Positions 10,968 to 18,742 of a DNA stretch of 64,000 nucleotides are shown here, one piece after another. The notes below the pieces were generated by a model, which made no database searches, was not told where the DNA came from, and was given only the letters and a program-made list of their open reading frames with translations. The first letter of the stretch is position 1. The number at the start of each line of letters is the position of its first letter. Position numbers and translations under genes: made by a program. Location of the stretch: contig NC_016109.1 in the NCBI RefSeq assembly GCF_000269985.1, positions 5,704,001 to 5,768,000 on the forward strand, read 5' to 3'. Source of the stretch: Kitasatospora setae KM-6054 (GTDB lineage Bacteria > Actinomycetota > Actinomycetes > Streptomycetales > Streptomycetaceae).

Positions 10968-11039
10968 TGGGGTATGGTGTAATTGGCAGCACGACTGATT
11001 CTGGTTCAGTTAGTCTAGGTTCGAGTCCTGGTACCCCAG
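10968..11039 (+). tRNA. tRNA-Gln (CTG)
   Basis: This 72-base cloverleaf has acceptor strands TGGGGTA and TACCCCA, discriminator G, anticodon stem ACTGA/TCAGT and loop TTCTGGT, giving anticodon CTG. The T arm contains GGTTCGAGTCC. U1-A72 is the pair known to mark bacterial tRNA-Gln for GatCAB. CCA is not encoded. Confidence 0.96.
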
Positions 11040-11060
11040 CGCAGCACATCACTGCAGTAA

Positions 11061-11133
11061 GCCCCCGTTGTGTAGTGGCCTAGCACGCCGCCCTCTCAAG
11101 GCGGTAGCGCCGGTTCGAATCCGGTCGGGGGTA
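11061..11133 (+). tRNA. tRNA-Glu (CTC), copy 1
   Basis: This 73-base cloverleaf has acceptor GCCCCCG pairing with CGGGGGT (terminal G-U pair) and discriminator A. Anticodon stem CCGCC/GGCGG holds loop CTCTCAA, so the anticodon is CTC. The T arm contains GGTTCGAATCC. It is identical in sequence to the next two copies. Confidence 0.96.
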
Positions 11134-11171
11134 CGCAATTCTTGACAATTGCACATGAATGAATGAGTCTC

Positions 11172-11244
11172 GCCCCCGTTGTGTAGTGGCCTAGCACGCC
11201 GCCCTCTCAAGGCGGTAGCGCCGGTTCGAATCCGGTCGGGGGTA
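11172..11244 (+). tRNA. tRNA-Glu (CTC), copy 2
   Basis: This 73-base gene repeats copy 1 exactly: anticodon CTC, acceptor GCCCCCG/CGGGGGT. The spacer before it (38 bases) is A/T-richer than the surroundings. Confidence 0.96.
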
Positions 11245-11257
11245 CTCGCTCATTCAG

Positions 11258-11330
11258 GCCCCCGTTGTGTAGTGGCCTAGCACGCCGCCCTCTCAAGGCG
11301 GTAGCGCCGGTTCGAATCCGGTCGGGGGTA
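11258..11330 (+). tRNA. tRNA-Glu (CTC), copy 3
   Basis: This is the third identical tRNA-Glu(CTC), only 13 bases after copy 2. The three copies are tandem duplicates within one transcript. Confidence 0.96.
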
Positions 11331-11334
11331 CTTA

Positions 11335-11406
11335 TGGGGTATGGTGTAATTGGCAGCACGAGTGATTCTGGTTCATTTAGTCTAGGTTCGAGTCCTGGTA
11401 CCCCAG
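11335..11406 (+). tRNA. tRNA-Gln (CTG), variant copy
   Basis: This 72-base gene matches the first tRNA-Gln except for two positions in the anticodon stem. The stem reads AGTGA/TCATT instead of ACTGA/TCAGT, so a C-G pair becomes G-U. Anticodon CTG and the U1-A72 pair are kept, so it should be functional, with a slightly weaker stem. Confidence 0.95.
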
Positions 11407-11427
11407 CCAAGAAACGCTCCACAGAAC

Positions 11428-17583: not shown

Positions 17584-17817
17584 CTACGGCCGCGCGGCGT
17601 CGGCTTCCGGGTCGGGGAAGGTCTGCAGGGTGAGGAAGACCACCCGGCGGTCGGCGCCCTCGCCGGTGGTGCGGATCCGGACGCGCTGGCCGGCGCGGAG
17701 CAAGCGGAGGCCGCCGGCGTCGAAGGCGGGGCCGTCGAAGGGGACCGGGGTGCCGTCGTCGAGCAGGACCGAGCCGGAGCGGGTCGTGGGCTCGAAGGTG
17801 AACGCGGTGGCCTGCAT
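17584..17817 (-). CDS. Possible independent 77-residue protein nested in the 3' end of cofC
   Basis: An ATG at 17817, in the same frame as cofC, begins MQATAFTFEPTTRSGSVLLD. It would give a 77-residue protein resembling a small OB or cold-shock-like fold (LLDDGTPVPFDG; LRLLRAGQRVRIRT; RRVVFLTLQTF). TATGCT (17825-17830) ends exactly 7 bases before this ATG, the spacing of leaderless Streptomyces promoters. It may therefore be expressed separately as well as being the tail of the CofC frame. I recall similar stand-alone proteins beside cofC in relatives, which needs checking. Confidence 0.5.
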   Translation of the reverse strand: MQATAFTFEPTTRSGSVLLDDGTPVPFDGPAFDAGGLRLLRAGQRVRIRTTGEGADRRVVFLTLQTFPDPEADAARP

Positions 17818-18522
17818 GGGAGCCAGCATAGGGCTTCGGAGCAGGGCCGCGGTGGCCGGTCCGAGGCCGAGCAGGCGGGCGGCGGCCAGGTCGGCCGGGG
17901 TGTCGACGTCGCGCCGGACGGAGGGGACGCGCGGGAGGCGGAGCTCGGTGGCGCCGCCGGCCAGGTGCGCGGCGCGGGAGCCGGGGCCGAACGCCGGGCG
18001 GAGCGGGCCGCCGTCGGCGCCGGCCAGCAGCACGGTGCCGGTGCCGGGGGCGTCCGGCAGGAAGGCCCGGCCGTGCGGCGGCACCGCGGCGAGGACCCGG
18101 GCGAGCTCGGCGGGCCGGAGCGCGGGCAGGTCCGCGGAGAGGGTGGCGACGGGCGAGCGGGGGTGGCGCCGGAGGGCGCTCGCGGCGCCGTGCGCGAGCG
18201 CCGGGTTGAGGCCGCCGGGTTCGTCGGCCAGCACGTCGGCGCCCAGCGCGCGGAGCGCCGCGGCGGCGCGCGCGTCCCGGGTGACCACCAGGACGCGGCC
18301 GACGGCCGGGCAGGCGAGCGCGGCGGCGACGGTGTCGCGGGCGAAGGCGAGGGCGAGCCGGGGCCGCAGCGCGCCGAGCGCGGCCAGCCGGCTCTTCGCC
18401 TCGGCGAGCGGTTTCACCGGGACGACCACCGACCAGCCGGTCCGCGGCGGGTCCGCCGGGTCGCGGGGCCGCCCCGGGGCGGTGGGCCCGACGGCGGCGG
18501 GGCGTACGGTGTCCTCTGTCAT
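17584..18522 (-). CDS. cofC: 2-phospho-L-lactate (or PEP) guanylyltransferase CofC/FbiD with fused C-terminal extension
   Basis: CofC activates phospholactate or phosphoenolpyruvate with GTP during coenzyme F420 synthesis. The nucleotidyltransferase core is visible as WSVVVPVKPLAEAKSRLAAL near the N-terminus, ATLSADLPALRPAELARVLA and VPSVRRDVDTPADLAAARLL. The ATG at 18522 lies 7 bases after CACAAT, suggesting a leaderless mRNA; an ATG at 18531 is also in frame. The frame runs without a stop through about 77 extra residues that read like an independent small protein (17584-17817). The usual CofC ends near residue 230, so this is a fusion or a lost stop codon. Confidence 0.85.
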   Translation of the reverse strand: MTEDTVRPAAVGPTAPGRPRDPADPPRTGWSVVVPVKPLAEAKSRLAALGALRPRLALAFARDTVAAALACPAVGRVLVVTRDARAAAALRALGADVLADEPGGLNPALAHGAASALRRHPRSPVATLSADLPALRPAELARVLAAVPPHGRAFLPDAPGTGTVLLAGADGGPLRPAFGPGSRAAHLAGGATELRLPRVPSVRRDVDTPADLAAARLLGLGPATAALLRSPMLAPMQATAFTFEPTTRSGSVLLDDGTPVPFDGPAFDAGGLRLLRAGQRVRIRTTGEGADRRVVFLTLQTFPDPEADAARP

Positions 18523-18742
18523 CGGCGCCATTGTGGCGTCGGCCGGGGAGCCCTGGCCAGTGCGTCCCGGGGGGTGTCCCGGGCAGCGGGCCGGGCCGGT
18601 CGGCTGGTGGCGGTGGTGGCTGCTCGACACAGGCTCGGCTCCCGGGCGAGACTGGTCGGCGCCCCGGAGCCGCTGGTCGGCCCCGGCGAGGAGAGAGACC
18701 GCGGCGCAGTACGGGGCGCCGCACGGACGAGGAGGAGCTGGG

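Follow-up and report, generated by a model that had tools for sequence, protein, structure and literature searches.

Does one reading frame of Kitasatospora setae KM-6054 give rise to two proteins, a fusion of the F420 enzyme CofC with a small C-terminal partner and that partner on its own, or has cofC merely lost its stop codon? The question is raised by a frame in a window of 64,000 nucleotides (contig NC_016109.1, positions 5,704,001 to 5,768,000), which is the whole stretch of DNA analysed here. A first-pass annotation, made from the letters alone, had described a CofC about 77 residues longer than usual and offered both answers.

The fusion frame and its two parts

The description of an overlong CofC was accurate: 77 residues, counted from the ATG at 17817, follow CofC in frame with no stop codon intervening (Table 1). 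The CofC part is matched by TIGR03552 (F420_cofC, an equivalog model) at 165.1 bits, against a cut-off of 105, over positions 2-195 of the model's 196. A predicted structure of the fusion (mean pLDDT 84.6) aligns with Mycobacterium tuberculosis FbiD (6bwg_A) at 42% identity, with an E-value of 4.5e-22 and a TM-score of 0.89 by target length. The likeness to CofC/FbiD guanylyltransferases (Rv2983; 6bwg, 6bwh) is this domain match over fusion residues 32-223, whereas the matched FbiD chains are about 205 residues long and lack the C-terminal 77-residue extension. The fusion is predicted to be an active CofC, with guanylyltransferase activity on 2-phospholactate, PEP or 3-phosphoglycerate. Elsewhere the window carries a cluster of five tRNA genes (Gln, Glu, Glu, Glu, Gln) at 10968-11409 on the + strand.

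Table 1. Positions, within the window, of the fusion frame, its parts and the putative promoter elements
Feature	Position	Strand	Remarks
Fusion frame, cofC with small gene	17584..18522	-	One open frame of 312 codons plus TAG stop (translation)
CofC/FbiD guanylyltransferase domain, residues 32-223	17854..18429	-	TIGR03552 and FbiD structure match
Linker of 12 codons between the domains, holding the promoter box	17818..17853	-	Bounded by TIGR03552 end and ATG
Small protein gene (MQATAF...), 77 aa plus stop, ATG kept	17584..17817	-	Fusion residues 236-312
TATGCT, putative -10 element of the small gene	17825..17830	-	7 nt before ATG 17817; read directly
CACAAT, possible -10 element of a leaderless cofC start	18530..18535	-	7 nt before cofC ATG

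The start of cofC also resembles a leaderless one. The pattern NANNNT lies 5-8 nt before the cofC start in 58 of the 59 genus loci with a located start, and cofC itself may be leaderless. A 2025 paper on Streptomyces, in which a cofC operon is reported for S. venezuelae, is evidence for co-transcription and says nothing of a second start. The two need not conflict: the recA-recX pair of M. tuberculosis is reported to combine co-transcription with an internal leaderless start (PMC3062782).

The small gene is present in all 70 genomes of the genus, in 148 of 150 of the family and in 69 of 197 of the class. Each of these 69 class genomes also has a TIGR03552 match (G195 only at E 8e-4), and none of the 18 class genomes without a cofC match has the small gene; as the genomes are related, such co-occurrence indicates an association only. 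A connection with CofC is suggested because adjacency, persistence nearby when cofC is inverted, and repeated fusion all point the same way. Our best guess is that the small protein might serve CofC, or F420 synthesis, as an accessory or stabilising subunit.

The first-pass label of 'OB-like' found no confirmation and is to be taken as a lead. AlphaFold2 predicts the order strand-strand-strand-helix-strand-strand for the small protein (mean pLDDT 74.7, pTM 0.40), and this order is compatible with an OB fold. However, no solved structure matches with confidence and no sequence family claims the protein. Foldseek gave a best E-value of 0.44 (none below 0.001), with cold-shock protein 1c9o at 4.1, and the best VIA-align hit, at Z 2.7, was not an OB protein. 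Pfam returned no family for the window's protein at E ≤ 1, CSD (PF00313) included; among 30 members of the protein's family, CSD appeared in three, with a best E-value of 0.021, below any accepted level. A Jag-related protein, 9lrg, was the sole PDB sequence match below 0.001 (E 0.00072); it spans 24 positions and was set aside. Across Pfam, NCBIfam, PDB sequences and fold comparison, the search for an OB-fold identity thus gave no significant match, those to GroES and cold-shock proteins included. To the small cold-shock and OB-fold proteins the likeness consists in the predicted element order and weak CSD matches, and the difference in the absence of a significant family or fold match.

The probable start signal of the small gene

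Read on the minus strand, the small gene's start is TATGCT, then GGCTCCC, then ATG, a spacer of 7 nt. Its conservation was assessed in 188 loci, made up of 70 genomes of the genus, 104 from the rest of the family, where 109 have a match (all of these but G151, G156, G160, G169 and G176), and 14 from the rest of the class, where 53 have one. These loci come from related species, so that locus counts are not event counts.

The pattern TANNNT precedes the small-gene start by 6 nt in 107 of the 188 loci and by 7 nt in 73, a total of 180. At spacings of 0-5 and 8-17 nt it occurs in none, and for spacings of 20 to 119 nt the mean is 0.05 (maximum 1) of 188 loci per spacing. Within the genus the box stands at 6 or 7 nt in 70 of 70 loci. 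The first-pass observation of an ATG preceded by TATGCT at the leaderless distance is upheld, and the arrangement is no product of chance. The looser pattern NANNNT, 6-8 nt before the start, is found in 186 loci. In one exception, L133, TAGGCT stands 6 nt ahead of an in-frame GTG four codons further upstream; the other, L130, lacks the box and has a Shine-Dalgarno core.

Spacing here agrees with the leaderless promoters published for S. lividans, where TAnnnT is reported in 93.4% and the mean distance from the -10 hexamer to the start site is 6.3 nt (PMC8079986). For S. coelicolor, 21% of primary start sites are reported as leaderless (PMC4895711). No -35 element was clearly conserved: the strongest column between -45 and -9, lying 20 bases upstream of the box, was a G in 76% of the loci of the genus. 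A Shine-Dalgarno-driven internal start was ruled out, since a 4-nt core at -16 to -4 occurs at background frequency, in 6 of 188 loci (the window not among the six) against 7, 6, 11 and 12 in four shifted control windows.

The box also persists where no cofC runs into the small gene. Genome G022 (L042) lacks the cofC body at the locus, where an apparent start remnant, VEDTVRP, lies beside the small gene; cofC is found about 4.3 Mb away, and TATGCT, 7 nt and ATG are all kept. Six genomes (G105, G114, G148, G152, G158 and G174) have a local inversion, with cofC and the small gene tail to tail on different strands: in four this shows in the sequence of the locus (L140, L149, L194 and L213), and in two, G114 and G152, from coordinates. 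Five of the six have the TANNNT box, and the sixth has CATAAT. Among fused loci, both box and ATG are unchanged in 29 of 29, including all 13 fused genomes of the genus, and in 17 of 17 fused loci of a second, named set that overlaps the first. Because the box is kept in every fused locus, in the locus without cofC and in five of six inverted ones, the small gene is an autonomous unit and probably leaderless.

Loss of the cofC stop and the fused clade

In 174 of the 188 loci cofC lies upstream on the same strand, within 600 nt; the other 14 lie outside this definition, among them L154, with cofC on the same strand about 750 nt away. The cofC stop falls upstream of the box in 102 of the 174. 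In 38 (L113, L114, L195 and 35 others) the three bases that open the -10 box, 12-13 nt ahead of the ATG of the small gene, are themselves the stop, and in five it falls between box and ATG. In the remaining 29, cofC is fused in frame to the small gene. An out-of-frame run-on past the small-gene ATG was found in none. The named set of 80 loci has 33 stops upstream, 25 at the box, one between, 17 fusions and four loci without an upstream cofC; 79 of the 80 have the box. Its fused members include Streptomyces violaceusniger, S. hygroscopicus, S. samsunensis and S. goshikiensis, as well as K. phosalacinea, K. griseola and K. cheerisanensis.

For the 70 genomes of the genus, the counts are 54 with the stop upstream of the box, two with it at the box, 13 fused and one with no cofC at the locus. 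Since cofC has its own stop in 56 of the 70, is fused in 13 and is absent from the locus in one, the stop was lost in this lineage, as the first-pass annotation had allowed. In most relatives cofC stops before the position that corresponds to 17817, and it is not the case that all of them share a long CofC devoid of an internal start.

Ten other genomes share the junction of the window, giving a clade of eleven (G000, G008, G009, G011, G012, G014, G023, G024, G025, G036 and G042). The nearest split genome, G041 (L073), reads CTG CTC TGA with a 6-nt spacer; its counterpart in the fused clade reads CTG CTC CGA (or GGA, GAA), with a 7-nt spacer. One stop base and one spacer base therefore separate the split from the fused arrangement. 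In one DNA tree the split G041 falls among the fused genomes, with support of 97/86. On a longer alignment G041 is unplaced, with p-AU values of 0.41 for the eleven fused genomes together and 0.33 for G041 with three neighbours. A single fusion, or a fusion followed by reversal, would both fit the clade, G041 being ancestral or reverted; a single origin is not rejected.

The linker of this clade carries an unusual pattern of change. The box TATGCT is invariant in all eleven genomes. Its first T is a wobble base and is T in 11 of 11, at a position where T ends only 0.8% of 2100 CofC codons in the clade; the codon that holds it has switched between CCT and TCT with the T kept. Over the last 11 linker codons pS is 0.084 and pN 0.124, against 0.22 and 0.087 in the neighbouring CofC and 0.205 and 0.045 in the small domain. 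Selection on the linker at the protein level was not found (dN/dS about 1.5 over 11 codons). This pattern suggests constraint on the DNA and not on the protein, as would be expected of a promoter within the linker. The small domain has remained under purifying selection after fusion, with a dN/dS of 0.20 for the clade, 0.10 for the g3 fused group and 0.14 for an unfused group. In one fused genome, G042 (L074), cofC is frameshifted in mid-gene, with no damage to the fused small gene or its box, an observation that may reflect an assembly error; unless it does, the fusion may be dispensable there.

Across the 174 loci, fusion has recurred. At least 13 changes between fused and split states are needed on their tree, by a quick method in which long branches were flagged. 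Were each of the 145 unfused loci to lose one stop, the run-on of cofC past the ATG would keep the frame in 45 of them and break it in 77. For about 12 independent fusions, the chance that all would be in frame at 45/122 is 6e-6. The data fit either the removal of out-of-frame tails by selection or an advantage of in-frame fusion.

Two probable products from one frame, and known parallels

We think it quite likely that a lost cofC stop, combined with an internal leaderless promoter, lets both the fusion and a free 77-residue protein be made from one frame. The small gene, an old actinomycete gene whose usual place is just after cofC on the same strand, would carry a promoter of its own, with TANNNT, at 6-7 nt from the start, as the -10 box that drives a leaderless mRNA. 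In this Kitasatospora lineage the cofC stop was lost and the spacer changed by one base, which brought the two frames into register. Transcripts of cofC, probably from the promoter at 18530-18535, would then give the 312-residue fusion, and transcription starting at 17817 would give the free protein. Resting on an open frame, a stop lost by comparison with relatives and the constraint on box and ATG, the model predicts a transcription start at 17817, accumulation of both proteins, and action of the small protein with CofC or in F420 synthesis. The two first-pass answers are supported jointly: the stop was lost, and the proposal of a fusion and a separate protein gains support from the retention of box and ATG in all fused loci, which is evidence from sequence comparison. 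Against the model weigh the operon reported in S. venezuelae, with no mention of a second start, the want of a clearly conserved -35 element, the lack of protein-level constraint in the linker and the frameshifted cofC of G042.

Other explanations of the locus have been weighed. A sequencing or assembly error in the window has nothing in its favour beyond the unusualness of the frame, and its probability is negligible: the same in-frame junction stands in ten other assemblies of the clade, which rules error out, and again in the named records of K. phosalacinea, K. griseola and K. cheerisanensis, some of which are the same assemblies. It might be, instead, that only the fusion is made, with box and ATG as relics and the small domain as the C-terminal domain of a longer CofC. 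The 13 or more changes on the tree and the operon reported in S. venezuelae would suit such a history, which we nevertheless hold to be very improbable, given a box and ATG unchanged in every fused locus of both overlapping sets, a T kept at a wobble position where T is rare, and a synonymous divergence in the linker well below the pS of about 0.21 in its neighbours.

The converse, that only the separate small protein matters and that in-frame run-on followed neutrally from the loss of a stop, the fusion being made without being selected, is less improbable and still rather unlikely. It accords with the want of protein constraint in the linker, with the frameshifted cofC of G042 beside an intact small gene, and with the split state of G041 inside the fused group; several fusions, moreover, are confined to single genomes and have long, unrelated linkers (L012, L032, L146, L159 and L174). 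What it explains poorly is that fusion is always in frame, at 29 of the 174 loci against none out of frame. That bias argues at least against out-of-frame tails; a benefit of fusion is allowed by it, not proven.

For the preferred reading, in which fusion and free protein are both made, the shared stop and box suggest a further step. We propose tentatively, and with slightly more doubt than belief, that a -10 box doubling as the upstream stop (TAG or TAA as the first bases of TANNNT) acts as a fusion switch, that the cofC pair has passed through it about a dozen times, and that the same route may apply to other leaderless genes of GC-rich actinomycetes. A change from TAG or TAA to TAC or TAT, or of one spacer base, would turn two proteins into a fusion plus a free subunit with the promoter still working, and repeated switching would follow because nothing is lost when a fusion arises if the free protein is kept. 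The hypothesis is based on third-base counts where the box is in register with cofC. With a 6-nt spacer, 23 of 28 such loci have TAG or TAA and stop, and five have TAC or TAT and are fused; with a 7-nt spacer, all 15 stop and none of the 15 has TAC or TAT, which is the expected direction in a small sample.

Gene fusion is usually read as the end of two genes, yet here the second gene appears to keep its own start of transcription and of translation. Fused and free forms can coexist, in a pair that has been joined repeatedly within one bacterial family. The natural series from split, through a stop shared with the -10 box, to fused would allow the cost or benefit of fusion to be measured. Proximity, shared occurrence and repeated fusion also connect an uncharacterised and nearly universal protein of the Streptomycetaceae with CofC, an enzyme of F420 synthesis, in genomes where annotation pipelines may report only the long protein.

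Literature on CofC fusions, on phospholactate guanylyltransferase with an OB fold, and on leaderless internal promoters, isoforms, overlaps or fusions did not yield this arrangement, start-site tables aside. Recurrent fusion with a probably leaderless internal gene kept is a new form of the known internal leaderless gene, and what is notable is the recurrence and the stop shared with the -10 box. The closest parallels, described in two reports, are both in M. tuberculosis. The promoter of recX lies within the coding end of recA, with its start at the A of the ATG and the pair co-transcribed (PMC3062782). There, however, the genes overlap, recA has its stop and the proteins are separate, whereas here the frames are joined; and the recX -10 element is given as absent in M. 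marinum, M. ulcerans and M. leprae, in contrast to a box kept in nearly all loci here. Leaderless 'isoform' frames resemble our case in having an in-frame internal start, a shorter protein and a shared stop (PMC9094748). That report lists 338 such start sites, many of them thought to be misannotation or noise of pervasive translation. Compared with these isoforms, the short product here would be an ancient free-standing gene, and it is the long product that would be derived.
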